Below, one piece after another: positions 17,331 to 36,762 of a DNA stretch of 64,000 nt (position 1 is its first letter; every line of letters begins with the position of its first letter). The position numbers were made by a program, and so were the translations under genes. The stretch covers positions 6,535,278 to 6,599,277 of the forward strand of contig JAJEKV010000040.1 of assembly GCA_021234155.1 (NCBI GenBank), given 5' to 3'. The notes under the pieces were generated by a model, which was not told the origin of the DNA, searched no databases, and saw only the letters and a list, made by a program, of their open reading frames with translations. This stretch comes from Isoetes taiwanensis (lineage: Eukaryota; Streptophyta; Lycopodiopsida; Isoetales; Isoetaceae).

Positions 17331-17836
17331 AAAAAACAAAAAGAAAACCCCAAAAAGGAAACATAACCTCTAACCTCTAAATGAAATTAAGCTGCTCAAA
17401 CATGCACAAACATACGATTTTGCATATAGTACGCGCCAAGAATCATAGTCCCAACCATTCATGAAAGGCCCTCCCCTAATACAAAACGAATTGAGCAAAC
17501 TTAATTGGCAGGGCAGACAAATTAATCTAAAGGCTGGTTTTTTGTTAGTAGCCATGTGTTAATTGCATCTATCTCATGCCATAAATTTGTAAGCTATTGT
17601 ACTAAGCATGATTTCATTAATTGGATAGAATAACACAATTTTGAGAATTTCAAGCACAACTAATTTGCTTAAGCACAAATACTTTCACCTACTTCTTGAG
17701 CCCAAGATACATGTCACATGATACATATATCCATACAAATTATACATTATACTGGTACGTGTACATAATACTTGTACACGCTCAATAATGGCGCTACAAT
17801 GTACACCAATAATTCACATCAATAATTTTACTTGAC

Positions 17837-17844
17837 TATAAAAG
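17837..17844 (+). promoter_or_regulatory. TATA box of tandem gene 1
   Basis: TATAAAAG inside a 30-bp block (caataattttacttgacta...aaagcagctccattc) that is duplicated almost exactly before gene 2. It lies only 43 bp from the ATG, which implies a leader of little more than ten bases if this box is used. Confidence 0.45.
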
Positions 17845-17879
17845 CAGCTCCATTCGGTGGTAGAGGTCATTCATCTCCC

Positions 17880-18122
17880 ATGGCCTACTTGCCTCCTCGT
17901 CCGGAGCACATCCAAACCATCAAGTGCTCCATGAGCTACAATGATCTTGGTGAGTGCGTGAGAAAGGGTCTCAACCTTGATCCCTATCTGCAATCCAAAG
18001 CTAATGGTCCTGAGATTCGTTGCCGCGGGCTAACTCGTGTTGTGATCCACCTTATTTGGCTTCCTGATTGCGAGATCTATGAGCTGAATGCCATCACCTC
18101 AGCAGATGTTGATGATGAGTGA
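17880..18122 (+). CDS. Small protein of unknown function, tandem copy 1
   Basis: 80 residues from ATG 17880, no intron, no signal peptide or membrane segment. I do not recognise the family. Blocks shared with copy 2 are IKCSMSYNDL, LDPYLQSKANG, EIRC and HLIWLP, ending in an acidic tail DVDDE. Four cysteines are present. A longer reading from TTG at 17832 would run through the TATA box and is unlikely. The start is supported because promoter, ATG, length and stop are all conserved in copy 2. The 240-bp gap to the next promoter has nothing visible besides short AATAATTCACC repeats. Confidence 0.6.
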   Translation: MAYLPPRPEHIQTIKCSMSYNDLGECVRKGLNLDPYLQSKANGPEIRCRGLTRVVIHLIWLPDCEIYELNAITSADVDDE

Positions 18123-18368
18123 ATCAGTGATAATTTGTGTACCTATTAAGGATATAATGATATAAGCACTTCTGAAATATGTAAGGATGTATAAGCATAG
18201 TGAATATTATTTGATGTATCGAACCTGAGTAATTTGTAACGTTGTGCTCGTCGACCTCCACTTTTTCTGCAAGCAGTCCCTAATTTCAAGCACACCTAAT
18301 TTACTCAAAGTCCAATAATTCACCCCAATAATTCACCCCAATAATTCACCTCAATAATTTTACTTGAC

Positions 18369-18376
18369 TATAAAAG
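18369..18376 (+). promoter_or_regulatory. TATA box of tandem gene 2
   Basis: TATAAAAG in the same context as at 17837. It is preceded by four tandem copies of an 11-bp unit (caataattcacc type) between about 18312 and 18358; copy 1 has about two. Confidence 0.45.
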
Positions 18377-18411
18377 CAGCTCCATTCGTTGGTAGAGATC
18401 ATTCATCTCCT

Positions 18412-18654
18412 ATGGATTATTCGCCTACTTCTGTGCACCACATCGAGGCAATCAAGTGCTCAATGAGCTACAATGATCTTGTCGGTTGCCAAATAAGGGG
18501 TATTCTTCTAGATCCCTACCTGCAATCCAAAGCTAATGGTGCTGAGATTCGTTGCCCCGGGATAACCCGTATTATGATCCACCTTATTTGGCTTCCTGAG
18601 CGCAATAGCTATGAGATATCAGGGATCACCTCAGCAGGTGTTGAAGATGAGTGA
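18412..18654 (+). CDS. Small protein of unknown function, tandem copy 2
   Basis: 80 residues, same length as copy 1 with no indel. By codon-by-codon count, about 28 codons differ in amino acid and only about six are silent changes, yet the frame and the IKCSMSYNDL / LDPYLQSKANG core are kept. Three cysteines remain. It is intronless and unrecognised. The local duplication includes the promoter, so both copies are probably expressed alike. The pattern suggests functional coding sequence under changing selection. Confidence 0.6.
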   Translation: MDYSPTSVHHIEAIKCSMSYNDLVGCQIRGILLDPYLQSKANGAEIRCPGITRIMIHLIWLPERNSYEISGITSAGVEDE

Positions 18655-18786
18655 ATCAGAATTTCAGCAATATATAATATAGTGATGTTCTGGCATATGA
18701 CATATAGTAATGCATAAGATCACTTGTATTAATCTGAAATATGCAAAAAGTAATAAAAAATAACTACTTTAATGTACCTTGAAGAC

Positions 18787-21197
18787 TCAAGTTTCATCTC
18801 CGTCCTCTGAGGCCTCTTTGGCAAGTAATTCTTGTAATTGAGCCGCTACACTCGCAGGTATCACTACCATCTGAGGCTTGTCCTTGACTGACCAACCATA
18901 GTCTATGGTTTTGAGATGTTGATAACGCGGCCTGTCGTTCGGATTTGGCCTCCACCTTTTATGCCAACAGTCCCTATACGTTGTTCATAAGAGGTATCTT
19001 TTCTTGCTATCGGCTCCCACCAAGACGCAAACACCTCTTCGTAGTGGGGAAGAGTTGGGTCTTGCACAGGCTCCTCTTTAGCAAAGGCCATCCATGCAGG
19101 AGATGAGTCTCCTGGTCTAATGAGCAAGAGCATACTCTTCTTGACATCTTGGTAGGGATCGAATGTTTCAACTGGGTTTTGTGGTTTAGACTTTATAGGG
19201 CCGACATAGTGCGGACGTGTTATGTACTCGTCGAGCATTACTGACTCAGGCTCCATTAACACGGACTGTCTAGTGAGAGGCTAGAAGACTTTAATTTCTT
19301 GGGTTCCAGGTGGGACCTGTCCAAGTGCATGCATCAGAGTCGACCAGTAGTCAATAACCTCATTCATGTAGGCATTAGACCATGAGTTTACACCACCATG
19401 AGATATGTTTGCCCAATGCATCATGTACTTCGCCATGGACGAGCGCAAGGCACCCATATCCTTGAGGCTATCATATGGCTTCACAACCTTAGGTGTTCCT
19501 GTAGGTATTATTGGCATACCATCTGCATCTGCCTTCCACATTCTTATTCCATTCTCAGGGAGCTATTCTCGATGCCCTGGCCTCATCTTGTAATACGTAA
19601 ATGGCCATCCATCTTTCATGACAAATTTGAAGAGCAGGGGCTCCAGGTGCCCAATCAAGCGATCCTTCTGGTCTGGAATGTATCCTTTCACAAATGACTT
19701 CTAATCAGAAACTTCAATGACTAGGTACGGAGCCAGTGCTTTGGTACTACACTCTCAAAATAGCTGCATTAGTTCAGGAATGGTGAGTGCATCCGACCTG
19801 CGCAATAATGTTGAGTAATTCCCGAACAATGCATCAATGTCATCATGGGTGTGGCCGACCATCATAAATCCAAGCTGTATCTGATCAAAAACTCCCAGCC
19901 ATACAAGATAAAAAAGGTAGGAAAAGAGATATCTGTTCTTGTTCTGGCCAGAGCAATTGTCCAGTTGTAAATATAACCTTCTAGGTAGATGTTTGGGGTG
20001 AGCTGGAGCACTAGGAGGGGCCATAAATTCTTGTCCAGTGCTATTGACCTTTTTAGTCCTCAATGCCATAGTGTTGAGGACTGCTTGTCCCCATGCACAA
20101 TCAGGGCGCTCAGCTTCTCTTAAATGGCCCCAATTGTCTCTCGAAGCATCCTCCAAGGTTTTAAGCGTGTGGTTCAAGGACCCAATATGAAAATTAGAAT
20201 CATCCTTCCACAAATCTAGTGAAAAATGGCCCAGAGCCCCAATACCATGGCCATGCATCAATGCACCTGTCACACTTACTTTCAACCGTTCTTCTCTCCA
20301 CACTGATTTGGCTAACTTCTCCAATCTAGGTACCATTGTCTTGTTCTGATCCATCTTGTCATGAATGATTGTTAGAGCTTGCTCAGGAGCACGATGCGAT
20401 AAAGCTCTCCACGACCAATACAGGCTCCTACAAGAAATCTGTGCTGTCATGTGTGCTTTCCTCTCGATCTGCATTTCTCTTCTCTCAATTGGATCTCTTG
20501 TCTTAGCCATTTTCTCTTTTATTACAATACAGCTATTGCACTTGGAGAAAGCTATCCTCTTCCCAATTGCAAGCTCTGGGTGGTGTAACTTCCACCCCCC
20601 TAAGAATGATGATTGGGAGATGTGCTTGCCTGTCATCTCCACTACACTGGCATCCACCTCGTGGAGAATGTCCTTCTTTGTTAGGACAGAAGGGAGCCTC
20701 TTCACATTCGCTCTCACACCTTCATTAGTGATTTTTGACCTGTGGGGCATCGTCTCTGCATTCTCATCTATGTACATAGACAGTAGGGCATTTCCTGCTA
20801 GAGTGTGCGACCTTGGTTTCTTTGAGCCCGTATTACCATGTTCAGCAACTCTATGACCAGCAAGGAAAAGTTTACGCCACTTATTGAAAGTTGACATTGG
20901 AATGCTGTAAGCTTTTTGTCATGCTTTCAAGCATACTTGCCTGTTATTCAGCGTCACCTTCCGGACTTGCCCATTTTCTGAGCAAAGGTCAAGCATGTTA
21001 TAAGCAAAGGTGGTCCTGTCCGATGCACTCATGTTCCAAAAGAAACTTCGCATGCATTTGATCTCCCAGGTGGAGAAAAGTGCACAGCATCTGCGAATGC
21101 AGCAAATCGTTGACTTGAAGTCTAGAATAGAGGCCGCAGTGATTTTCTTATCAACCTTGCATGGGGTAGCAGGTGTTCGTGGTGTTTGATTTACCAT
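18787..21197 (-). pseudogene. DUF7869-type transposase-like gene, decayed by nonsense changes
   Basis: From ATG 21197 one frame runs about 2.3 kb with five in-frame stops (TGA 20919 and 19755; TAG 19701, 19563, 19281) and no frameshift until a one-base slip at about 18910; past the slip the C-terminus (YGWSVKDKPQMVVIPASVAA) ends at 18787. The core block LYLQLDNCSGQNKNRYLFSY followed by MMVGHTHDDIDALFGNYS is the signature of the DUF7869 group, RNase H-like proteins common in moss, fern and gymnosperm genomes; I infer a transposase. Upstream, a Cys/His-rich stretch may bind zinc. It lies head to head with the next gene, about 230 bp apart. All stops could come from C-to-T change (CAG to TAG, CGA to TGA), or G-to-A in TGG. 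Confidence 0.7.
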
Positions 21198-21429
21198 TCT
21201 ATAAGACCTCTTTCAAGTCTTAGGAACTTCCACTTGCATTGCATATAGTTCTACTTCGATATTCTGTTCTTTCACAGCCTTTATGAGAGTCAATACTGGG
21301 ATATTGTCAACTAACACGAAGGCATTTGACCACCTCACCAGATCGTGCAGTTGTGGCATTTCAGCACAAGCTCAACAGCTACAGTTTGTGGAATATATTT
21401 TGCGCTGACAAAACTATGATCCCTCTATC
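21198..21429. promoter_or_regulatory. Divergent intergenic region
   Basis: About 230 bp between two oppositely transcribed genes. No clear TATA box on either side; it probably holds both promoters. Confidence 0.3.
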
Positions 21430-22270
21430 ATGATCGCAAGCAAAGTAAATAAGCCTGCTAGTGGGAAGGGGTACCTAGGATATGGCTGGAACTTGCCATC
21501 TTATGATTCTTTGAGCCTGTCAGGGATAAAGTGCAATAGGGATATACTTGTTGGCTTCAGCATGCGTAGGAAGGGCCTTTCGGCTGATAAAAAACCTCCT
21601 TCCATTGCATTGAAGGCTACAAAGGACAACAAGATGCCTTCCAGAATGGACAAAACTAGTTGCAGGCAATTGCCAAGAAGAAAACCGTGATCCCATTGGC
21701 TCTTGCAGGTGAGCCATCGACTCCAAAAGAATCCTTGAGGTCATCTCCGCTGGTGCAGAATACAAATCCAGGCGGTCCAGCCGTTGTCGACCCCTCTGCA
21801 CAAACTATGCTTATTTTACTTCCAGTAAGGGATTCCCATACACAAGAGACACCTCTTCCCAAGAAGATAAGTACCTTCAAAATTAAACTTCGAAATTTAA
21901 ACACTGAAGAGACAGGGCAGCCCTCTACCTCGTCTACTCCCACCTCCTCTAACAACCCTTTGCCTACGACTTCCTTGTTAATTTGGCCATCTGTTTCACG
22001 TATGCCAGATGAATTAAGATTCAATCCGGATGAAGAAAAGAAGTTAGCTGAACAGACCGCCTCCAAGCTAGAGGAATTTAAAAGATTTTATCCTATGAGA
22101 GTGAATTGGTTCCAAAAGATCAGCATTTTTTATTGTGAGACAGCCCCTGCTAATCTAACTCATAGGGTTCGATCTAATGACCATGTACAGACACTAATCA
22201 GGAGTTTCAAGAGATGCCCAACAGAGGTTCTCACGCCTGCCGACGTTGTGCCATTTGACCCAGTGACAAG

Positions 22271-22345
22271 GTAAGGTTCATTGCATTTTTCCTCTGTTAG
22301 GCCGCCTGTTTACAATGCCTATTAACTGATGGGACATCAATGCAG
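22271..22345 (+). other. Intron in the ParB/methyltransferase-like gene
   Basis: GTAAGG donor at 22271 and TGCAG acceptor ending 22345; the join ACAAG|GAAATTAATC keeps the frame (T-R-K-L-I-T-W). A second GT-AG pair lies at about 22684-22748. Introns indicate a gene that has lived in a eukaryotic genome, not recent bacterial contamination. Confidence 0.6.
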
Positions 22346-23617
22346 GAAATTAATCACTTGGTCCCGTCCTGAGGAGCTCTTGAACAAAAAATTCTATATT
22401 ATTTCTGGTAATCATAGTATTTTTGCTGCACAGTCTATGATGGAAAATGTCGAACAACGGCTAGAATTTGCCAAAGCTTATGCAAAAAGAAGAAGCGGAT
22501 TTTGAATGGAAACCTATCCAATAAAGAGTATATTCAATTATTCATTCAGTGCAACGATATCATAGCGGATACAGTGTATAAGGAGCCACGAATTGAAAAG
22601 CTCCAGTAGTTAAGGAATCAGCATAAGGCCTATGGATGCCCTCCACAAGGCCCAACAGGCACAGCAGTCTCGTCAGCCTGGAAGGTAAAAACTTATTTTC
22701 AGCTATTGAAGATCGCCATCGCGATCCTGACCAGCTGTTGTTTGCAGGATTTTGTTGATGTAGCTACAACAACTTTGAAAGTTAAAGAACTCAAGGATGA
22801 AAAGCAATTCCTCTTCATGTAGGAGGAATCATGGAGTAAGCTTCTGGCTGTGGTTAACAAGTGGGCAGCACGCAAGCTGGCTGATGATCAGGGGGAACTG
22901 CCAGATAAGCCATCAAAAGGGTTCTGCAACAAGACATTCCTAAGATACCTTTGAGGAATGAATAATGCCAAGGTCAGCCAACTCATGGATGAAATTCTCG
23001 AAGGCAAGGTTTTCTTGAAAGTGCAGTCAGGTTATATAGGGCGGTTTGATTGCCGACAGAGGGCGCTGGACATCAGAACTCTATCGCTGATGCATCTGAA
23101 AAGCAATTGTCAATTGTGTTTCAGAAAAGCAATACAGGAGTTTTGAGGAATTGGCTATATCTTTTCCAGAACTTTCTGAACAACGGTTGCTGGATATAGC
23201 TGACACTGATTTCGATTACGTTAAAGCCAATTACAATAAGGACTCAGTGCAAGGCAATCTCCCCAGTGCTTTTTTGGAAGCCATTATCGCAATCATTAAG
23301 CTAGAAGAGGCAAGGGAACAGAAGGAGAAGAGGAACATCATGCACCATGTCACCGAGTCGGGGTATTCCCCGTTTTACGCACCTGTGTGTGAGAATGCAA
23401 CTATGATATTTATTGACATGCGTAGTTTCACGACGCTGTGGGAAGTTAAGAAATACACAGATCTATTTAGCAGGATTGCAAGCATGACAAAAGCTAAGGT
23501 TTATCACATCGTCATGTTCCTTAGATCTGCCCATTTGCCGAACTGCATGTACAACCAAAGTCAGATTCAAGGTAGTTCTCACGTTTCCCTTGGAGCTTAT
23601 AAAGAACAAGGCTACAG

Positions 23618-23637
23618 GGTAAAAGCACGTTAGGGTG
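23618..23637 (+). repeat. Left terminal inverted repeat of the 9.6-kb transposon
   Basis: GGTAAAAGCACGTTAGGGTG; an exact inverted match to 33200-33219. Similarity beyond 20 bp fades to a loose GGG/AATT pattern. Confidence 0.9.
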
Positions 23638-23914
23638 TCATACATTAGGGGGCAATTCATGTAAACTTTTGAACGGGTTGCTGAATTTTAAATGTACTTA
23701 TTTCATGTATAAATTTTGTCTTATATATTTAAAAGGGGCAAAATTCCGTTTGTTTGTAATTATGACGGTAGAGGCCCGGCGGTTGATCGCGAAAACTCCT
23801 GGAGGAAATTCCTCCCTCAATTTCCTCGGGGAAAATTCCCTCGAGAAAAATTTCCTTCCAAGAAAATTCCCAGATCGAACCAAGAAAGTAGAACACAATT
23901 TGAATTTTTTTCGA

Positions 23915-24048
23915 GGATCAGGAAACATGCAATCTGGTGATTTTGAAACTGAATGTGGCGATCAGGAAAACATGCAATCTGGTGATTTTGAAACCGAATG
24001 TGGCGTCGGGAGAACATGCAATCTGGTGATTTTGAAACCAATGTGGCA
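23915..24048 (+). repeat. Three 45-bp tandem repeats near the left end
   Basis: Three successive copies of a unit containing aacatgcaatctggtgattt then tgaaaccgaatgtggc, about 300 bp inside the left terminus. Subterminal repeats of this kind are typical transposase-binding regions in other plant DNA transposons; here that role is inferred. Confidence 0.6.
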
Positions 24049-24159
24049 AACATCGGATGGCATCCGTGAATTCAAAATTGTGAAGAGTAAACAACGGTGG
24101 CATCACGATAATTTCGAAAGTGGGAGAGATGAGAAAGGGAAAAAGAAGATGGCGAGAGC

Positions 24160-26950
24160 ATGATAGCGAAATTGAAAAGGGTAGTACATCCTCAAGGTAT
24201 GTTACCAAAAAATAAGGACCGATGTGCAAAATGCTATTCTTGTTATGAGAAAAGAAATTTGAATCTCGGCTCTAATCAAAGGTACTTATTTGCTTCTAGA
24301 TTCTTGCAAGATCACAGGCTATTGGAGCTTTTTGAACCTGTGATTGGTTTGCCTTCACAAGCAGTGGTCAAGCATGCAATTTTAGAAAACCTTAAAGATG
24401 GATTGGAAGAGGTAAAATGCTCTAATAGTGGTGATAAATTGGCTGCCAAGCACTCGGTTTATCAATGGTTGTGGGGAAAAATGGTGATTTGAAGCAAAGG
24501 GAATTGCTTGCAAGATGCTCAAATGCCATCCCCAAATCTTTCATATGTTTTTAGCGAAGAAAGAGAATGGCAATTGCTGGTTCAAACATTTGGGCATTAG
24601 CGGCGGGAATGCTAGATCGATCGTTTGGATGAAGAAACCAAGCTAAAAGTCATCCGATTCGGCTTAACAACACCAAGGTTTCACCAAAATACTGAGGAAT
24701 GTGAGGAAAAAAAAAGCGAGGCAATCCAGTATCTTGACATTCCTCAGGTATTAAAGCTTTTGTCAAAGAAACTATTACATTTCAGTTTCTTTGTTGTTTT
24801 CATGTACATTTTCATGCACATATGTGAACTCCTCTACTAATCTTAGTTTACTTGCTTTGATGTAGCCTTTTTTTCTGTTTTGCTTCTTTGTATTATACAT
24901 GTAAATGAGGTTTATGGGGTCATCTACTTGCTCTTGGAAGTATTTCATGTATATTATGTGATATATATGTACATAGTGTAAGGATGTAAGATTAAATGTG
25001 CCAGAAGTGAACTCCTTTGCCAATCTTAGTTTACTTGCTTTGATGTAGCCTTTTCGGTCTGTTTTACTTAATGTATTATACATGTAAATGAGGTTCATGG
25101 GGTCATCTACTTGCTCTTGGAAGTATTTCATGTATAATATGTGATATATATGTACATAGTGTAAGGATGTAGGATTAAATGTGCTATAAATTGATACTAT
25201 ACATAATCTACTGTACATATGTACCTTGAATATGTCAGATTCAATCAAATCTTTTTACATGTACAACTGATATGTACTGGTATACATAGTATTTCTTACT
25301 TATGTACTGGATATGTAAGGTATTCAATGCACAGTCTTCTCCAACTTACATATTTTCTTTTGCAATGTGCAGGCTGAGCTATATGAGCAGTTTGTGGAGG
25401 AGAATCCAGATCACGAGATGTTGGTATTAGAATGTTCGAATACACGAAACCAAGTTCTTGAGAAGGAAATTGAAGGAGAGAAACACTTATAGCATGATTG
25501 CAATTGTGATGTATGTCTTTGTTGGTACACATGATGGGGTTTGTCGGGGCACAAAAGCTTACATTTTGTAATGTTAGCACTCTTTGGAGAAATGGTTTAC
25601 CAAAAAGAGGAAAGGGAAGAGTGGCACAATCTAAGTGCATAAGGGGATTGTGAAAAATGTGGTAAGCAAAAGATTCCCTTATGTCCAAAAGAGACTGATC
25701 GAATAATGAAGATGATGTTAAATGGCGGAAACTTCTTGTTATATGGGCGAGAACTCAAGGAAGGGGCACTTCTAGAAGACTAAGATTGGTGGAGAAACAA
25801 GCGGATGCTCCTTTCATGCTATCTGCCATGTTTGATCACATGAAAAAAGTTTGTGCATCACAACTTTGCGGCTCATTGGCGAGCAAGGAATTTAGGAGAA
25901 GCATTGAGTCTAAGAGATGATTACGTGATATCGATGAGTAGACTTTGCAGAAAAATTACACATTGCGACCCTTCAAAGAAGTCTTGGTCGAACATTGGAA
26001 TCTGCGGACCGGATCACTATTTTGGTACACATCACTCTCTTCAAGGTAAATGGTAAGTTTCTTGAAGGCTGTTCACTTATATGTTTACGATGATAGAAGT
26101 CATGACACACATTTTTGTACAACATGCATTTCAACTTCATCTTCGATGGTTGAAAGAGAATGGAGGATCTCACATGCGGTATCATCTCGTGTGGTCGGAT
26201 GGTTGTCTTTGCTTTCGGTTCAAATCGAAGATCATTCTACTTCATATCACGGGTACCATTGTCGACATGGCATTAGTGTACAATGGAATTTCTTCGGATC
26301 AGGGGCATGGGAAGGGGAACATGATGGAGAGGCTGCCAAGGCCAAGCAACTCTTGGCCCGATGAGCAAAGAAGAGAGCATGGGATTGAAATAAAGGGTGC
26401 TCATGATGCTGTGTTGTTTTGAGAAACAAGAAATCTCAAGTTAAGTAGAGTGTATTGGGAAGTGAAGGAGGCTGAGATTGATGGGTCAAAGCCATTTGAT
26501 GTGCAACCCCTTCACGGTGTCCAAAGGCGGCCTTTGTGTATCTTCCATAAGTCCGGAGGACCCAACCTTCTTGATGGTTAGACCACTATCTTGTTTTTGC
26601 GGTGCACATAAACTTTGAATGGCATGTGAGTCTATTCAACAACGTGGAAAGTGGACATTGAAGAAGCTAGTCCCATGTGCACATCTTTGAAGGTGAGAAT
26701 TGGAATCGAAAAGCGCAATGTTTGCAAATGAGGTAGAGGAGTTACATGATGTGATCTGGTTTGGTGATAATTTTGCTTCTTTTGCTCTTCACGGTAATGA
26801 GGAAGATGTGCCATACTATGTTCTTGCTTGCACTAGAGAAAAGCATGTATTGGATCAAGCAGTCATTGATGATTACAAGAATGAGCATCATGCGGTGACG
26901 CAGATCATATCGCTTACTATTATCGAAATTGCCAAGTTGCCATAACAAAT
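24160..26950 (+). pseudogene. Transposase relic of the 9.6-kb transposon
   Basis: Ordered pieces in several frames: a Cys-rich CAKCYSC region with LGSNQRYLFASRFLQDHRLL (24160-24492), TKLKVIRFGLTTPRFHQN (24625-24747), an intron 24748-25372 (GT...CAG), AELYEQFVEENPDHEMLVLE (25373 on), YVQHAFQ-like then LRWLKENGG and WSDGCLCFRFKSK (26110-26240), GSGAWEGEHDG / GHGKGNMMER in overlapping frames (26300), and a C-terminal block DDVPYYVLACTREKH-like (26800). The order WSDG...FKS...WNFFG(S)GHGKGEHDG occurs in transposase-like proteins of moss, fern and gymnosperm genomes. Many frameshifts and stops make this copy non-functional, or partly mis-sequenced. Confidence 0.55.
24825..25190 (+). repeat. 184-bp tandem duplication inside the transposase intron
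   Basis: gtgaactcct...aatctt agtttacttg...gtacatagtgtaaggatgta occurs twice in a row (about 24825-25008 and 25009-25190) at over 90 percent identity by eye. The two units carry the same splice-neutral AT-rich content, so the intron was simply lengthened. Confidence 0.8.
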
Positions 26951-28349
26951 ATAAGTTGTTGGATGATAGAGAAGTATTGGTGCGGTAGAGTCTCGTTATT
27001 GGAGCTAAATTTCCCATGAAGAAGATAAATCCGCAGGGGTTAAAAGGTGCTAGTGCAGCTTTTTGCATTGTCCGATGATGTGCATGAGATGTTGCTAGGA
27101 AGTCTTCCCTAAATGGTGGATGCCTTGGATTAGAAGAAGGCTTTGAATTTGCATGCTTTGTATTGTGTTACTTTTTGAATTGAATTGAATTTGCGGTGGT
27201 TTGTCTTGTGTGAACTACTGGTTTGTAAAATATAGCATGGAACATGTTGAAGTTCAAATCGTAGACAAGTGCAAAAGGTACACATAATTATATTTCTGGA
27301 GCAAATAGTACGGTGTACACACTTAATAACTTAAGAAGGGGCCTAATCACTATGTCATTTGGAACACAATATCTCGATTACTATTGCATCATGCACGCCT
27401 TTCTTCCAACGGTTTTCGATTTACATGTGTCTTTGCGGTAGCACTTCTTTGTTGGGCATTCTCGGCTATTGGAAGGCGGTCCACCCTATTGGGCGATCAA
27501 CTACTTACGCAAAGGATGGTCTCCCCAAGGATTATGTAGTAAACCTTGGATTGCAAAATAGATTTAGCAAATTGCTTTCGAGTATCACAATCATCGATTC
27601 TCTCAACCATTTCCCAAAGCTCGGGGGAAGCATGGTATTCGACCTTGGATTAGTCCCCGGCCAAAGATATTGGGAACTTAGATTTCTTTCTTCTAGATCA
27701 GTTGGTTGAAGATCTACTTCAGCTGGTTGAAGAATTTGACACTTGTTTTGTGGATCATTCCTTACACCTACAATGCATACAAAATTATTAGTATATCATG
27801 TGAAAGCTTAAGCAGTATTACCTAAGTTATGTACATACGACTGTATTGCAAAAGCTCTACAACATACAACATCTAAGCATAATTGTATTACCTAAGTTAG
27901 ATACATACATACGAAGATGTGCCCGTGTCCTCGACTTGTTTGCTATCGATGTACCCGGCACACTCATCTTGTACCCCACCTTCATCATCTTCACTAGATT
28001 CTTCTATTATTGTAAAAATCTCTTCAACGTGTGATGCTAGGCTTCTTAATTAGCAAGCAACCTCTATTGCAAAAGCTCCATAAACTATCAATGTCTTCAC
28101 CATATTGAGATTTTATGCATTTCCTCTTGTGTCATTGTATGCACGAGAAGTATCAAATTGATGCTCTTGGACATAAGTGGTAAAGTCATTTGCATTCTTC
28201 AAACCTACAAACCCAGTCAAATAGCCAACACAAATCTTTGTCTTCACCGGTTAGCACAGGGATGCCATCTTGGTATCACGGCAAGAGCAACCCTCATTGA
28301 AGATACATTTGAAAGGAAGGTCGATAATCATAACACATCTATTTCCATT
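26951..28349. other. Middle of the transposon, no assigned gene
   Basis: A 116-residue plus-strand ORF at 27359-27709 has no motif I know. The rest is short ORFs between the transposase and protease genes. Confidence 0.35.
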
Positions 28350-31300
28350 ATTACGGATACTTGAGGAGTGGAATATCAAAAGGGAAAAGAAATATATACG
28401 TCCCATCATTGGCCTCTAAGAAGAGGGTCCAACATCTATTGCCACCATAAATGAATTTAAATCTTGGTATGCCTTGCTCATACAACTTGTCTACAATGGC
28501 TGTATCGAACATCCAAGGGAAGATCGACCAAGCGATAAATCCCAATGGTTGGAACACCAAGATTACAACAATGATTTCGACAATGGACGACAAAAAAGAA
28601 GACTCCATCGGTGGTGGATTGGCACTTGAGTGCCATTATAGTCACCGGGTGCTGATTTACAATAGTAACCCAAAATGCCTTGGAGATCAAATATAATAAG
28701 CCCAAATAAGTAATCCAGGGCGCTTAGGTTAGCCATACATCTAACGACCAAGCATAAGGATAAGATGAAAGTCTAAACTAATTCTAGTTTTTAACCCTTG
28801 ATAGAAATTAAAGCGTTGCAAACAATTTCTTATTCAAATAAATTTCAAAGTACAATAGTCAATTAGCTTTAAATTCCATAAGTTGGAATGAGTTTAACTA
28901 CCACTCTTCCGCCCAGGCCCAGTGACAACTTGTTTTGTCTCATCTCTTCTTCTCAAACCATATTCAATCATGGCTTTTATTAATACATTTCTTTTGCCAA
29001 GTGCAAAATCCTTGTCGAACCATGTTGATGAAAAAAACAAAAACACAAGAATTAAGATCCGCTACAATAAAACATCCCAAAAGATTTATGTGAAATATAA
29101 GAACAACTCACCATGCTTTTAGAATTCACTTGGGCATCCACAAAAGCTTGCATAAAGGCCATCACATAAAGACCGCAGCTTACATTATCTGGTTGTTGTG
29201 GAACCTCTGGAATAGTTTCCTTCTTCACTGCATTCTTCACATATAATTCGACTCTCGTGAGCTAGAGTTGGTTAGATATGTGATGACATCCTTATGAAGC
29301 ACACACACAAATGAGAACATGCAACTAAGATTTAAGCAAGCAAAGGTGGTACATATCTTGAAAGAAAATGCTCACATATTTAGGAGTTTGTTTGTCCACC
29401 ATTATACCCAGTCATGGAGTTCAACACAATAATTGCGGGAGAAGCCATTGAGGTGGTAATGCAAATTTTTCTGAACTCTAAAACAAAAATCACCAAAACA
29501 TGATGGGCGGGGTCCTCAACTTGAATGGAACCATAATATCTTTGGCATTTACTAACAACAATGCCTTGTAGCCCTTTCTCAACGCACTTACACTTTGACC
29601 GTCCCATACTATTAGCATCCGGGGCTAATCTTTTAAATGCTGCCCGATAAGTCAAAAAGTTTTCTGAAGGAAGAAAAAAGAAGACATCTCGCCATTTGGA
29701 TGTCAATGTGCTGCTCACATACCTTTCGAATATGTCTAAATGTTTGTTAGACATGTACCTATCTTTAAACAATGTCTCCACCACGATTTTTGTTGACCTT
29801 AATGGAGGTTCGGCTTGGAACGGATAGAATGGAACCATTGTCCGAAGGTTATCCATGTCAATTTGCAAACCAAGCATCAATGGTAACTAGCATAAAACAC
29901 ATATTTACTAATCCAATTACACTTACAGTTTGCTCAACCGATGTCCGGCTTCTAGTTCTCTTAGTGGCCGCGACACCTTTGTATCTTTTCTTTTTTTGAC
30001 TCTTTCGTTCACACCACTATCTCAGATCACGTTCTATCCTCAGATTCCTCCTTCTCTTGCTTCACCACAACCACACTTTGCTTCATATCGTAGCCACATT
30101 CTCCACTAAAATTTCTTCATTACCGGTTGTATATGTTCTGTCTTACATGATTCTTCAATCTTTTCGATTGTAGTTCCAACTAAGGCCATAGATCCACTAG
30201 TTTCCTCTGTTTTACGCGAATAATAAAATGTATGAACATGCAATAACTAAATGCAATAAGTAAAATTTGACTTACCACTTGAAAACAACATTTCAAGTTC
30301 GATTACGATGATGTGGCATTGGCTTTAGAATTGGTACCTTCTGCACATTGTCTGCAACTGTTTTCTTGGGAGTGTCGAAGACCTCTACAATAATATCTTT
30401 TTTCTTTAGAGTGTCGAGAGACCTCATTGTTCTCCTCCTTTCTGGTTCCAGTACTACAAGATAACTCATTGTCAACAACGGCAGATAAACATCAAGAAAA
30501 TGTAGAAATTAAACTAATATGGACACACACCTATCTTGCCACATTCAGCCCTTTGCTTCAGGAGCTCAATTTGTTGTGCATATGAAGCTACAATTGTAAC
30601 TTTGCTTGTGACAAGCGTATCTGTATTAAAAAATGAGCTCAATTTGCTTCCTTATAAAATCCAAAAATTCATTTAAAACTAATTACTTACTTGATGTTCC
30701 TTTTCCTCCTCTCTCATGCTCGCTACAAAAATGTTTGAATGTGTTGAGGTGACCTAGATGTGGGCGGGGTTGACTTATCATGCTTCCCTCCATAATAATC
30801 ATCTACACAACTTGAAAAATCAAGTGTCTTTCTTGGGGAGGATCTACTCTGTTCTTGCCGCATCATCACATAATGAGGTGAAATTGAAATACATATGAAA
30901 ATACCATAACCACATATCACATACCTTTCTCGGCTTCTTTATACTACCCATGTCACCGCAAGAATGAAAGCATTACCAATAATAACTAGATGACTGAAAG
31001 AAATGTACAATCCGGAAAAGCAATGTACAATCCAATTCCAAATGTATTCCATGTATCGTAGATTGCGAAATATATACAGTTTTATGTACACACATCCAAA
31101 TGTAGAAAGCTTCCTAGAAAAAAGAATTCATAAATGCATTCCATGTAGTCTGTATTAGATATATTAGATATATGTATTTGGTTGGAGCCAACGTAGAAAA
31201 AGCTTTTTGGAAATTTGTAATTGCATTAAAATGTATCATAGAGTACAAAGATGTATCAAAATGTCCCCGGTAGAAGACCACATGTTATACAAATGTACAC

Positions 31301-32820
31301 ACAGTGCGTTACCTACTTATCCTATTTTCTTAGTACATAAAAGTAACTCCTCAATATTATCGGCAACATCGTACACCATGCACATTAATAATATGCATGT
31401 ACTAAGATGATGTTTACACCCGACCTAGAAAAGCAAAACGATCCAACCCTACAAATCTTCACTTCAACCTACATTTTAAAACCCAAATGTAATTAATATA
31501 CTACGGAACAATTAACGACAACCAATGCACAACTTCTAACTAATATCCATCTACCAATCTTACACCAACTAATAAAGAAAGACATGAAAGAAATCGAATA
31601 TGCATGCTTACCTTTTCCAATCAGCCCCAATGCACGAGGTAGATTCACATCCCATGTGCGCTGGTACCATGCTAGCTTGTTCCTTGTGCTAGCAAGATAG
31701 GAGATACATAATAGGCAAAGAAGGATGTCTGCAAGAGATGTCAATACCACTTGGGGAGGAACCAAAACATCTTTTCGCAATTTGTGCGGGGATCAAAACC
31801 AAAGATTTGGTCGCTCTGCAATCGAAATCAAAGAAAGAGGAGGAGGTGCAAGCTAAGGACCGAGGAGTGATCTAAGAACTCCCTCAACTCCAAAATCTTT
31901 GTGTCCCCCTCCTCAATTGCTCTCTTCTTTGAAGACCTTAAATTGAGTTCGAATCTAGGCGCCTCAACTTTCGGATGCTTTTTGCTTCCACTTCCTTGCT
32001 AAGCTCAGCTAGATCCCGCCCCGCTTTGCTCTTCTCAGAATTGCATCCTCCACCTTCCATTTTATGTGCTCAAACTTCATAGCACTACCGTCACTTCCAT
32101 CCATCTGCTGTTGAAATGCCTCCAACTCGACATCAGTTCAAGTAATTAGTCTCTACCTCATGGACTAGCTTTGAATATCCCCGCCCCTTTCCCCTTCCCT
32201 ATGCTTCAAAGTCTCCGTATAGGCTGCGGTCTCGTCTCACAGAAATTCAAATCTCCTTACATATGCTTTCCTTCAAAGAGGATCTGCTCTCAAGAAATAC
32301 ATTCAAACTGTCGTCCTCTTTTTTGTAGAAAGTATCATAGGACTTGTGGCCCTTGGCATTCTTTGGACTTGATCATTACAACTTCATCAAAACCTCAGTT
32401 CTTTGACCTTGCTTTTAGTCGTAGCTGTTTTTTAACATCATCCCAATCAACCGATTCACCTTTTAAGTGTAAGGCAAATGCTCTAGCAAAATACAGGGGA
32501 ACATAGTGATTACATACATCTTTCCTACCGAATGCAAACTCATACCACTTAAAAAAATTCTGCCGGTCTTCCAACTTCACCCGGCTCATCCTTGTACCCA
32601 CGTGCACTGTAGGTTCCTTAGATCCCCAAACTGGTCACTAAAGAGTTGTACTCTGCAAATTTTCCTTGAATTTCATATTCGCGGATCCCTTCTTGAAAAA
32701 TCATGGTCCTCCTTGTCTGCAGCGGGGACTTCCGGACTTCAAATGTGTCCCCTTTGGAAGCCCCGGGAGATTTTCTTGGACCGATGCGGGGGCAGCACTC
32801 TTCTTTGGTGTCTTTGCCAT
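28350..32820 (-). pseudogene. Ulp1/C48 cysteine-protease gene of the transposon, broken
   Basis: The start is ATG 32820 (MAKTPKKSAAPASVQENLPG), then after a frame change FFKWYEFAFGRKDVC and FARAFALHLKGESVDWDDV (32395-32560). Farther on, at 29390-29880, comes AHHVLVIFVLEF ... IIVLNSMTG, matching the His/Asp part of Ulp1 (HW...DSL; here the Asp is Asn). At 29100-29240 VPQQPDNVSCGLYVMAFMQA carries the Gln and catalytic Cys. Introns probably separate these blocks. A tail at 28351-28608 contains YGGNRCWTLFLEANDGTY. Ulp1 enzymes cleave SUMO or NEDD8-like modifiers; the role inside transposons is unknown. The Asp loss and frame breaks suggest an inactive copy. Confidence 0.6.
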
Positions 32821-33199
32821 TGTCTATACCTGCAATGCAACAAGAAATATCTTTTAATTGTCCTAAAGGTGCAACAACTGAGCTTGCACATGTAAACAAA
32901 ACCCTAAAGTAATAAATTAACAAAAAAAAAAAACTAGGGAAGAAGACGATTGTACCTTTGATTTGTTGAGAATGGCCAGCGACTTTAAGAAGAAAGCGTG
33001 CTTTAGTCGCTTTAGAGATCGAGGTGCGGATCGCAGGGTAAAAGCGGAGAGATCAAATGACAAAGAAACAAGAACGGGAAGAAAGAATTGGAGGAATTTT
33101 CGATATGCCTATTTTCGGCCGAAAAAAAAAAACAAAATTCACGTTAATTATTATACATTTCTAAAAATGTATATGTATTAAAATGACCCAATATTTTAT

Positions 33200-33219
33200 C
33201 ACCCTAACGTGCTTTTACC
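33200..33219 (-). repeat. Right terminal inverted repeat of the 9.6-kb transposon
   Basis: Exact inverted copy of the left end, directly followed by the second CTACAG target copy. Confidence 0.9.
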
Positions 33220-34180
33220 CTACAGAAGTGAGGCCTATGTGTTGCCTGTGAAGCCGAAGCTTGAGTTAAGGCTGACTCAGGTGACTAGTGCACCCAAGAG
33301 CACGCCCCTTCCCAAGTATCCAATAACTGGTGACGAGGAGATAGATATGAAAACAAAGAAAAAATATTTAGAGTATTTTACAGGTAAGCCCAAGTTCTCT
33401 TGGGCAGCAATGGATGATGACTTCGTCCACAAGAGCCAAGCAAAGACTTCCTATGTATATGCAATGGTAAAGGAGCTGGTTCCAATGGACGGTTGTGTCC
33501 TTGATTTTTTTTCGGCAGGCACAACTTCTAGAGTTGCTCTGATGCAGGGGAAACACAGTGTTTCATTCGAATATGATGATAAGATATGCCGTTTCCTTCG
33601 ATCTTTCTTCGAGACTTTAGAGAAGATGACACGGCCTGCAAATGAAGAGGAAGAAGAAAATGCAGTGCCGGATAAGCCAAGCAGTTCAGATATTCCAGAC
33701 ATCAAAATCACTCAGGAGACAGATCCTAGCAAGATGGATGAAATACGGGATGCTCTGGATCAAAAAAGCTTCGAAGAGAGGTTACAAGAAACCCGGGCAT
33801 TGTTAGAACAAACAGAAAAAGCAACTGCTGAGCTCGATCCACAATTCAAGAAGCTGGAGGCTCTCAACAAAAATTTTGAGAAGACCCTGCCAGTAATAAC
33901 AGGTTCTGTCGAAAAACCACTTCATAATTTCGAATATATTGGAGTGTCTGGAGGCACATCTGGAAGTGGGAGACTGGATGGCGATCCTTCACCAAAGAGA
34001 CTGAAGTTGGTTAGGCCTACAGAGTACTCAGAGGCATTGGCAGAAGAATTGCTGGATACTCCACAGATCTCACAGCGTGTGCAAGAGATAGTTGTTGCTA
34101 TGGATGTGGATATTTCGAACACCACAGGATATACGAAATCGATACATCACAAACCATTGCAGCAGGAAATGAACAAGTGA

Positions 34181-34680
34181 GAAGAATAGCAGCAGAGCTT
34201 GGCTTAAATATAGAATCTGTGCCAGAAACTCAGTGAGAATGTCTATCATATGAAAAATTTATTGTAAAACTTTTCTGAATATATATGAATCCACCAATTT
34301 TGCGGAATTTACTTGTCTAAAAGATCACGATCGCGTTTATTCCGACAAGATTTGCCTTTTATTTAGATAGATATTACTTAGTTCTAAGCAATGAATTTGT
34401 TATACTTTGCCTGCTTACTTGTCCAACTCGCCATGGCGATCTTTGGGAGCATTAGTAATGCTTTTCGAACTTAATAATTAATGTCATCCGACCTCGAGGC
34501 CATAAGTGTACAGACGATTTTTGGCGACTATAATTTTATTGAGCTGATTTACTAATTTGAAATGCTTCATTGTGCTTGCTTACAACCATTTTTTACTTTG
34601 CCCGAGGTGATCGCGACCTATTTCGTGGTCAAACGAGAAAATGAAATTTCTCTAATTAATGAAATCTTGATTTACTCTTC
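34181..34680. other. Downstream flank of the methyltransferase-like gene
   Basis: The reading past the stop at 34180 could continue in another frame for about 18 residues (RRIAAELGLNIESVPETQ). Beyond that no gene and no obvious terminal repeat is seen. Confidence 0.35.
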
Positions 34681-35023: not shown

Positions 35024-36762
35024 TTTTTTTTTTTTTTTTTTTTTTGGAAGAATGAACAAACTTTATACTAATAGGAAGATGCTAATACAATGGGAAGTCA
35101 AGGCAGGTTGAGGTAACCCCAAACCTCATCCTTAATATCTGGACGTAATTTCGAAGCCCAAACTGATCATACAGACGAGATTTTATCTCTTGGTGGAGGC
35201 CCGCAGAAGGGGTGTTCAAACCTTGGAAGACCAGATGGTATCTGCGCTTCTAAATCACCCAACAAACCAATCCCCTGCAGATATTGAATGCCCACTTCTT
35301 GAAGCGAGGCCATCTGTCAGGGTAGATGACCAAGAAAATATGCTGACTCGTGAGGCGAGTACGAAAGGAAAAGCGTATAGCTGACCAGATGCGAGAGAGA
35401 TCATTACAAAGTAGAAAGCAATGCTCAATTGATTCAGATGCACCCTTGAAGACTGGACACAGAGGACTGATATTTGGCTTGAAGGAGTGAACACGAAGAT
35501 TAGTCCTCAATGCTCTATGCACAGAATGCTGAGCCTTAAGGTGGATTATGCCCGCTGAGTCTTTGGGTGGACCATGGAGGCTAAAGGAGTCGGTCGAGTC
35601 AGGGAATTGAGGCAACAGTACCCACAAAAAGGGAGAGGAGGTTTGGGACCAATTATGCGGATGCAAAGTAAGCAATGAGCTGACATCTTTTGAAGGTTTG
35701 AGAACTCTAGAAAGGAAAGTAGAAGCATGCTGAGATGGCTTCAAGGGATAGAAGAGAGCCCAAGGCAGACAAGGGACCAGGGAAGACTTGTAAGGCCTTG
35801 ACAAGCAACCGCATGCCACATGACTGCGTCTGATCGAAGAGAATTCTCCATATGAACTTTGGGTTTACTACCTTGTTATGGATCATACCAAGACAACCAT
35901 CCCTCTTAGAGCGCACACACTTCTTCTATGCTACTTTGACCATTGCTCCCTTTTCGTTACCACCCCAAACAAAGTTACGTATAATGGTCTGTATCTCTTT
36001 GAAGTTTGAGAATGGAGCTAACAAAGCAGAAGTGACATAGACATAACTGTTATTTAGAATAGACTTAGCGACCGTTGGTGACCTGTGTACGCCTTGCCAT
36101 AGAGAGCGATGCCTTACCAAAGTAGATGCCGCTAAAGGCCTAAGATAACCTGATCCCAAGCCTGCATAATGTCCACCTCTATACCAAATGGCACCCCCAA
36201 AAAATTTGGTGACAGTGGTGGGCAGAACAAACTACCATGGATAGGCCCGAACGCATGCCAGCAGAGGAGTGCCCATGCCCATATGGCGCTGCACTTATGC
36301 CAGTTCAATAAAATCCCGATGCTAAGGAAAAGTGATCTAGGAGCTGCTTAGACTTGTTAAGGTTTGCTTCAAGATGCCTTCAGGAGAAGAAATGTATCAT
36401 TTGCAAACTGATTGCACACGATCTGAGAGTCATCAGCCATACCCAAGCCTTGTACAAAGGAATCATCCACTGCACACCAAAGAAGCTGTGAGAGGCCTTC
36501 TACAACAACAGTAAAAAGAAACGGGGCCAAAGGACATCCTTGTCTAATACCTCTCCCAAGAAATATGTCAAGGGTTCACCTTGGTATAGCATTGATGCCT
36601 TAGTCGACCTCAACAGCCTTCCATATTATGTCACGTAAAGTAAATCCGAAGCCCAATTTGCGCATAATCTGCAGAAGGAATGTCCAAGAGACAATGTCGT
36701 AGGCTTTGGCAAAATCCAACTTTAAGTACACTACATGTTGATCAATACGTCTTGCCCAATGC
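35024..36762 (-). mobile_element. 5'-truncated L1-type LINE
   Basis: Minus-strand element ending in a poly(A) tail (T run 35024-35045). It starts inside the RT domain (ARRxDQHVVYLKLDFAKAYD) and ends with the zinc-like HCFLLC region (CPVFKGASESIEHCFLLC) of plant L1 elements. Stops and frameshifts make it inactive. The 340 bp before the poly(A) and the LINE itself are duplicated, inverted, at 56590-58815; this copy keeps about 400 bp (35470-35810) that the other lacks. It lies directly downstream of the NPH3-like relic. Confidence 0.8.

Follow-up and report, generated by a model that had tools for sequence, protein, structure and literature searches.

A DNA transposon family in Isoetes taiwanensis with divergent DUF7869 and ParB/methylase-like genes and family-private palindrome arrays

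Positions 17604–34672 of the window (the whole 64,000-nucleotide stretch of Isoetes taiwanensis DNA analyzed here) hold a defective copy of a cut-and-paste DNA transposon of ~10 kb, termed family A; the module reported earlier for this locus (18787–34180) was too short. The element is bounded by a left terminal inverted repeat, AAGCATGATTTCATTAATTGGA..., at 17604–17630 on the plus strand (22/22 to the form searched) and a right one at 34646–34672 on the minus strand (24/26), and these are flanked by a matching target-site duplication (TSD), TACT, at 17600–17603 and 34673–34676. The same outer edges are found in this copy and in four others, and a 4-bp TSD, the length also made by Sola1 transposons, is exact in nine of 11 copies in which both ends were recognized (15 were examined; the four with one recognized end only were left out of the count). 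Two related small open reading frames (ORFs), each of 98 aa from stop to stop, lie in tandem on the plus strand at the left end. ORF 1 (17826–18122) is open at the same position in copies C1007 and C996, partial in C908 and not seen in C1034, C1067 and C1075; ORF 2 (18358–18654) is open in C1007, C996, C1034 and C1067 and broken in C1075 and C908.

The putative transposase gene, of the DUF7869 type, occupies approximately 18787–21250 on the minus strand. Its core ORF (19755–20918) contains the LDNCSGQNKN...VGHTHDDIDALF motif set where the earlier note had placed it, and matches Pfam DUF7869 (PF25273) with an E value of 1.5e-37 and 129.5 bits, above the Pfam cut-off of 26; the genome's 150 best-listed DUF7869 matches, with 167–187 bits, all score above this ORF and, so far as they were inspected, come from other families. 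In the window, the gene is split into several frames and its 5′ end is deleted, while up to 1019 aa are open in another copy. The D-x-MDQ, LDN and HTHD motifs are conserved between family A and a sister family, B, described below. Structure prediction for the DUF7869 protein gave a mean pLDDT of 45.3, too poor to call an RNase H-like fold. We infer that this protein is most likely the transposase of the element.

The second gene, here called ParB/methylase-like, lies on the plus strand. It comprises the remainder of exon 1 (21409–22270, with a frame change near 21660), exon 2 (22346–22684, lacking 10 nt relative to other copies, with GNHSIFAA at 22407), a first part of exon 3 (22748–23615, with an in-frame TAG near 22820 and FIDMRSF at the motif IV position) and a second part of exon 3 (33222–34180), which holds a putative motif I, VLDFFSAGTTSR, and the N6_N4_Mtase match. 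MIFIDMRSF falls within 23100–23633 (plus strand) and HKSQAK...VLDFFSAGTTSR...FEYDD within 33182–34180 (plus strand), and these motif sets, like GNHSIFAA, are all located as first described. The introns claimed for the module are likewise real, being of the GT-AG type and conserved between copies. The 9.6 kb separating the two parts of exon 3 was considered as an intron and rejected: it is a separate transposon (23616–33221) with 22-bp perfect inverted ends and CTACAG at both edges, nested in the methylase-like gene. The two genes had been described as divergent and about 230 bp apart; the divergence holds, and the head-to-head spacing does not, because ~2.5 kb present in other copies is deleted here (scar at 21371–21385), together with both genes’ 5′ ends and the palindromes found there in other copies. 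A genuine shared promoter in this gap was therefore rejected. Both genes are broken by frameshifts, an in-frame stop and the nested insertion, and this copy of the family A element is dead. With at least 220 merged methylase-like loci in the genome, the suggested domesticated remnant was not borne out, and a domesticated gene was rejected in view of the many copies.

Among the matches listed (109 and 122, at 107 and 121 places once second pieces of the same place were left out), 29 of the 30 DUF7869/methylase-like pairs within 10 kb are divergent, the window pair included, and 0.28 pairs would be expected by chance. Together with the common edges, this agrees with the proposal that the two divergent genes form a module of a mobile plant element; the genome-wide search that had been suggested for further adjacent, divergent pairs thus finds the pair recurring with shared outer ends.

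The spliced ParB/methylase-like protein is 1,189 aa from stop to stop in copy C1067. In the window, the PF01555 (N6_N4_Mtase) match has an E value of 5.8e-5 and scores 23.6 bits, short of its curated cut-off (26.7). The active beta-class motif IV, [DN]PP[YFW], was not found in family A: the corresponding position, set by order and context, reads D-x-[RH], and never PP, in 21 of 21 copies read by pattern (20 loci and the window; L048, the same locus as L002, was skipped). The putative motif I is of the VLDFFSAGTASR type in family A versus VLDAFSGSGTT in the sister family, the beta-class pattern being F-x-G-x-G. The SAM-fold domain of family A probably acts as a binding module, either non-catalytic or altered. 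Two MAFFT alignments with misplaced short exon rows (A4 and A5) were discarded in favor of another, A6. Structure prediction for this protein was poor (mean pLDDT 40.7), PDB sequence searches returned chance-like matches only (best E values 0.15 and 0.072), and a scan of viral contigs for relatives gave 202 pattern matches, none of them confirmed. A phage tblastn search with the sister methylase returned 620 records; the ten listed are 28–33% identical and annotated as DNA methylases, which has no bearing on origin.

The ParB label is less firm. Searches of Pfam, PHROG, NCBIfam and the PDB gave no ParB match for the family A protein, PF02195 (ParB_N) matched neither this protein nor the sister-family exons, and a whole-genome PF02195 search gave a single match, below the cut-off (E value 1.49, 19.2 bits). 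Of the two profiles named in the earlier note, the family A protein matches PF01555, below its cut-off, and not PF02195. Family A has the GNHS motif and a motif order that may be ParB-like. In the sister family, an NCBIfam ParB model matches with E values of 8.4e-4 and 1.1e-3, far short of its own cut-off; the best Pfam match of the ParB-like exon is DUF6551 (E values 0.002–0.009) rather than ParB_N, and the top PHROG match of this region is annotated as of unknown function. A profile comparison of families A and B gave an E value of 9.2e-4 with a probability of only 22.7%. The ParB label thus draws on the sister-family NCBIfam matches, the A–B profile and an algal parallel (below), against the lack of any library match in family A, and on these sequence grounds we assign the family A protein only weakly as ParB-like.

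Family A elements carry, arrayed in non-coding DNA, a palindrome of the form GCTC-N6-ATCGC-N4-GCGAT-N6-GAGC. Each element has about ten of them, which lie in the upstream regions of both genes, within intron 2 and 3′ of the methylase-like gene. The window copy retains one in intron 2 with exact arms (GATCGCCATCGCGATC, 22711–22726), a decayed one 3′ of the gene (34323–34338, two arm mismatches) where other copies also have one, and another at 34426–34441 (one arm mismatch). Further matches at 18599 (two mismatches) and 28523 (one mismatch, in the nested insertion) are taken as chance. The degenerate core occurs 1,790 times in the genome versus six times for a control. Each of four full copies has 9–11 sites with at most one arm mismatch (shuffle means 0.07–0.3) and none in its flanks. 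With the conserved Met taken as the DUF7869 start, all 24 exact-arm sites of these copies fall outside coding intervals, as do 13 of the 16 one-mismatch sites, the other three being in coding exons. Element protein sequence was present in 18 of 19 sampled site windows, and the 19th holds 138 bp of element-like DNA; the 19 were picked from 50 listed sites after those on C1 near 0.65 Mb and on C6, C48 and C68, close to matches already in the list, had been set aside. The palindrome in intron 2 is kept in 18 of 19 rows, or 17 of 18 loci (L019, without a site, is counted as a miss), and synonymous sites between subfamilies are saturated (dN/dS; 40 of 78 methylase pairs listed). Outer half-sites are also apparent, with T(−8) in 184 and A(+21) in 176 of 206 sites, which are not independent because some trace back to a common ancestral site.

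Sister family B is larger than family A and has the same gene layout: of 22 pairs within 12 kb among the matches listed, 20 are divergent (0.33 expected). Both sister copies read have DLPY at motif IV, and PF01555 matches two copies with E values of 2.3e-18 and 2.9e-17. This family has a palindrome of its own, GTGTATTCCGGAATACAC, with 2,585 exact copies in the genome versus none for a control; three of eight loci of this family, each covering 2.6 kb of largely coding sequence, are without it. The distribution of the two palindromes is nearly private, with almost no cross-occurrence and one weak B-palindrome match in the family A locus L022. Array periods are ~34 bp and ~42 bp.

ParB-methylase genes opposite a transposase have already been published for algae: passages of a paper on the brown alga Ectocarpus describe Sola1-1_Ec32, with a ParB-methylase accessory gene opposite its Sola1 transposase, and refer to Iyer 2011 and Petroll 2025 for transposons of green and red algae (PMC12477816). 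As described there, Sola1-1_Ec32 shares with family A a ParB-like and N4/N6 methylase-like protein (1,104 aa, versus 1,189 aa in copy C1067) encoded on the strand opposite the transposase of a DNA transposon. However, Sola1-1_Ec32 is a 21.5-kb algal element, whereas the present one is ~10 kb, resides in a vascular plant, has a DUF7869 protein as putative transposase, lacks motif IV in family A and carries private palindrome arrays. The word ‘palindrom’ is absent from the main text of that paper (PMC12477816), and family-private palindrome arrays beside ParB/methylase-like genes are new as far as the literature searched goes. In the passages on VANC, the anti-silencing protein of Arabidopsis VANDAL elements, its motif clusters lie in non-coding DNA, and the 9-bp motif it binds is repeated in a single orientation (PMC5735166). 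Judged by motif layout alone, family A resembles these VANDALs in that introns and upstream regions hold tandem arrays of a private motif, which differs between related families; unlike VANC’s short motif, the site here is a long dyad, and its candidate binder is ParB/methylase-like. Bacterial parS sites are palindromic. The present system may, as in ParB–parS, combine a ParB-like protein with a DNA site, although in a eukaryotic host and with a longer site repeated about ten times per element. The ParB–N6_N4 methylase domain pair is frequent in phages, according to a passage of PMC12704722.

We consider it somewhat probable that family A is a transposon whose ParB/methylase-like protein achieves self-recognition through private palindromes. 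This protein would most likely bind its own family’s dyad and load on the palindrome arrays in a parS-like manner, giving a self-recognition address; once bound, it may sustain the expression of that family despite host silencing and/or tune its own promoters. The sister-family protein, with DLPY intact, may also mark DNA by N4/N6 methylation. We infer both the identity of the binder and the effect of binding; the palindrome arrays are in line with the earlier note’s suggestion that this protein is perhaps a DNA-binding partner. DUF7869, being as tightly linked to the palindromes as the ParB-like gene, could itself be the binder. The palindromes would then be accessory sites of the transposase, like the subterminal repeats of other transposons, with the ParB/methylase-like protein doing something else; such a role would suit the pair of palindromes that every one of the four full copies has toward its right end, at distances of 245 and 352 bp. 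We regard this as unlikely: the layout is asymmetric, the leftmost ~3.9 kb of those copies holding no site with one mismatch or fewer, and the palindromes cluster upstream of genes and in the intron.

It is possible, if somewhat doubtful, that the palindromes play no epigenetic role and are plain operators: sites in promoters or enhancers through which an element protein or a host factor exerts autoregulation. Sites upstream of both genes, in the intron and in the 3′ region would be in keeping with this, and dyads typically bind dimers, but arrays with these periods go beyond what a simple operator needs, and two families with unrelated words and almost no mixing argue against a shared host factor. 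Active self-methylation in both families, with the palindromes as methylation sites, appears quite unlikely; the PF01555 match, the retained motif I-like sequence and the DLPY of the sister family speak for it, as does the proposal by the Ectocarpus authors, in passages of their paper, of own-transposon binding and epigenetic modification (PMC12477816), yet every family A copy read has D-x-[RH] in place of motif IV. That the arrays are functionless tandem-repeat debris amplified with the element, as the tandem arrangement of some sites might suggest, is most improbable given the retention of the intron-2 site despite saturated synonymous divergence, the dyad symmetry and outer half-sites shared by different positions of one element, and the location of all exact-arm sites of the full copies outside coding intervals. 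Self-recognition by the ParB/methylase-like protein may have a wider reading, for and against which we see the case as evenly balanced: that land-plant DNA transposons run ParB–parS-like address systems in which a protein and a long private palindrome coevolve, sister families are without cross-recognition, and the methylase of one branch is a non-catalytic reader.

The Ectocarpus paper suggests, in passages that name no site, that a transposon’s ParB-methylase protein may bind the element’s own DNA and mark it (PMC12477816). Here, two family-private palindromes found with their proteins provide candidate sites, which makes the idea of own-DNA binding directly testable by EMSA or DAP-seq; a single genome holds 1,790 copies of the degenerate core of one and 2,585 exact copies of the other. 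The system is a possible eukaryotic counterpart of ParB–parS and would, beside VANC, be another case of transposons that may counter silencing with a private DNA word. The present elements would extend ParB-methylase transposons to a vascular plant, in which one branch has lost the catalytic motif.

Comparison of the window's element with four other copies from the host genome (G000; 1,110 contigs, 1,658,258,908 bases), each read across 15 kb, revealed outer edges common to all of them, which lie at 17604 and 34672 in the window. The termini are imperfect inverted repeats starting AAGCATGATTTC; both are recognizable in 11 of 15 copies examined, and nine of these two-ended copies have an exact 4-bp duplication adjoining the ends (TACT for the window copy), with one matching at three of four bases and one offset by a base. 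The four full copies of this transposon family (family A) span 9,653–10,307 bp and are arranged as two small, mutually related ORFs in tandem (+), the DUF7869 gene (−; putative transposase), a ~2 kb spacer, and the ParB/methylase-like gene (+), the GT-AG introns of the last being conserved. The small ORFs at the left end (window 17826–18122 and 18358–18654, +; each ~98 aa between stops, with DE as the final residues) occupy the same place in other family A copies, and are possibly a third gene.

Merging the genome matches listed gave at least 220 methylase-like and at least 107 DUF7869 loci. Among these matches, 30 pairs lie ≤10 kb apart, including the window's own, against a chance expectation of 0.28 in any orientation; 29 are divergent and one is on the same strand. 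The recurrence of a divergent pair with common outer ends, as anticipated in the earlier note, is thus borne out, and the transposon and its gene pair are firm.

The window copy itself is dead. It lacks about 2.5 kb where the two genes have their 5′ ends, so that the head-to-head spacing of ~230 bp noted earlier is only apparent, and the ParB/methylase-like gene has a frame change in exon 1, an exon 2 that is 10 nt short and a stop in exon 3. Exon 3 also houses a 9.6-kb nested insertion (23616–33221), which is bounded by perfect inverted repeats of 22 bp (AGGGTAAAAGCACGTTAGGGTG) and shows CTACAG at both edges; it contains a tandem duplication of 183 bp (24824–25184) and a piece (29052–29261, −) that looks Ulp1-like by its motif QQPDNVSCGLYVMAF. 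Beside the element, a zf-RVT match (35250–35864, −; E = 8.4e-6, slightly below its cut-off) is perhaps a retroelement remnant. The motifs quoted in the earlier note were found at their positions, and its DUF7869 label is supported by a Pfam match of the minus-strand core ORF (E = 1.5e-37). The last plus-strand exon matches N6_N4_Mtase (PF01555; E = 5.8e-5), its 23.6 bits falling short of the 26.7-bit cut-off.

In the partner protein of family A, methylase motif I is retained (VLDFFSAGTASR type), and the motif IV position, assigned from order and context, is occupied by D-x-[RH] in all 21 pattern-found copies (20 loci and the window). Between subfamilies, dN is 0.25–0.43 with dS saturated among the pairs listed, and the protein has therefore long been kept under selection; dN/dS within subfamilies is ~0.25–0.44. 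A ParB-like region with GNHSI[FC]A spans exons 1 and 2; no profile library searched (Pfam, PHROG, NCBIfam) named ParB for this protein. AlphaFold models of both element proteins were of too low quality for use.

DUF7869 is far more widespread in the host genome than family A, with 9,907 first-look candidates (PF25273). A PF01555 genome search yielded at least 150 matches above cut-off (best 3.0e-17), and the best 150 of each gave 22 pairs ≤12 kb apart (20 divergent, one convergent, one same-strand; chance expectation 0.33). Two loci of this sister family (family B), read across 9.9 kb, carry VIADLPYGF and VLDAFSGSGTT, together with the ParB-like motif YVLGGNHSFKA, with MHYVLGGNHSFKA in one and THYVLGGNHSFKA in the other. 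For the ParB-like exon, NCBIfam matches a ParB family and nothing else (E = 8.4e-4 and 1.1e-3, with scores of 19 bits where the cut-off is 143.75), PHROG gives ParB-like matches (E = 0.031 and 0.29) ranked below a family of unknown function, and Pfam gives DUF6551 (E = 0.0087 and 0.0023). In a profile comparison, the GNHS blocks of the two families align (E = 9.2e-4, probability 22.7%). Taken together, these matches make a ParB domain likely in the sister-family protein and the earlier ParB label plausible for the window's family, albeit with no library match naming ParB there. Upstream of this exon, the sister gene has a conserved exon (IYENFQTQW...RG...GKY...TF; L051 4584–5321, +; L073 4522–4968, +; L074 4108–4986, −), two copies of which had no Pfam match.

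Reading of the family A introns brought to light a repeated palindrome with arms ATCGC-N4-GCGAT (A site). When ≤1 mismatch is allowed, A sites number 9, 10, 10 and 11 in the four full copies, with none in their flanks and means of 0.07–0.3 in dinucleotide shuffles. With a conserved Met taken as the DUF7869 start, all 24 exact-arm sites and 13 of 16 one-mismatch sites lie outside coding intervals. The window retains sites at 22712 (exact), 34427 (one mismatch) and 34324 (two mismatches), the others having been deleted with the ~2.5-kb segment. Genome-wide, RATCGCSRYSGCGATY occurs 1,790 times (backwards control, 6). Of 19 3-kb windows picked from 50 genome sites listed, excluding those already near listed matches, 18 encode element protein; the other, L045 (C99:71200–74200), has four A sites and 138 bp of element-like DNA, and may be either a very old copy or a non-autonomous one. 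Intron 2 has an A site in 18 of 19 rows, or 17 of 18 distinct loci because L002 and L048 are the same locus; L019 is the miss. Across 206 different site sequences, some of them derived from common ancestral sites, T occurs at −8 in 184 and A at +21 in 176, and at least three of five bases of outer half-sites are present on the left (TGCTC) in 158, on the right (GAGCA) in 156 and left and right together in 117; random 5-mers would reach this in 9.6% of cases per side. Sites repeatedly lie 34 bp or ~63 bp apart.

Family B carries a word of its own: L073, L074 and L051 contain, respectively, 15, 14 and 8 instances of CAAAGTGTATTCCGGAATACACTTTG or close variants (none in 30 shuffles per locus), and GTGTATTCCGGAATACAC is present 2,585 times genome-wide (control, 0), with recurring spacings of 41–42 bp among 50 sites listed. 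The words hardly mix. Fifteen family A sequences have 3–13 A sites each and no B site, except one weak one in L022; in this count, one of the window's three A sites sits in the nested insertion. Eight family B loci have no A site; five have B sites, and three, short and mostly coding, have none.

The parS site is palindromic. ParB proteins load at parS, and phage proteins frequently join the ParB fold to an N6_N4 methylase, according to PMC12704722. As described in PMC5735166, VANC proteins of VANDAL transposons recognize arrays of private motifs, located within introns and in upstream regions, and cause loss of DNA methylation, a layout similar to that of the palindromes here. The main text of PMC12477816 describes Sola1-1_Ec32 of Ectocarpus, where a ParB-like plus methylase protein lies opposite the transposase, as its counterpart does opposite the putative transposase here, cites similar proteins from green and red algae, and suggests that such proteins may attach to the transposon encoding them and alter it epigenetically; neither 'palindrom' nor 'DUF7869' occurs in that text. 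This kind of element is thus already known from algae. Our literature search, in which subscription journals were mostly outside coverage and papers were judged by titles and abstract openings, turned up no paper on DUF7869 and none that describes private palindromes for elements of this kind; as far as these searches go, three things are new: the private palindromes, a second family using a separate word, and the loss of motif IV.

Palindrome binding, the binder's identity and the effect of binding are what we infer. Two related families each pair a ParB/methylase-like gene with a separate long dyad, placed both in introns and upstream of genes; the best explanation is that a protein of the element reads the element's own word. 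Methylation would be possible in the DLPY (sister) family only. Given ParB loading at parS, the phage fusions and the VANDAL-like layout, we favor the view that the palindromes serve self-recognition for element expression.
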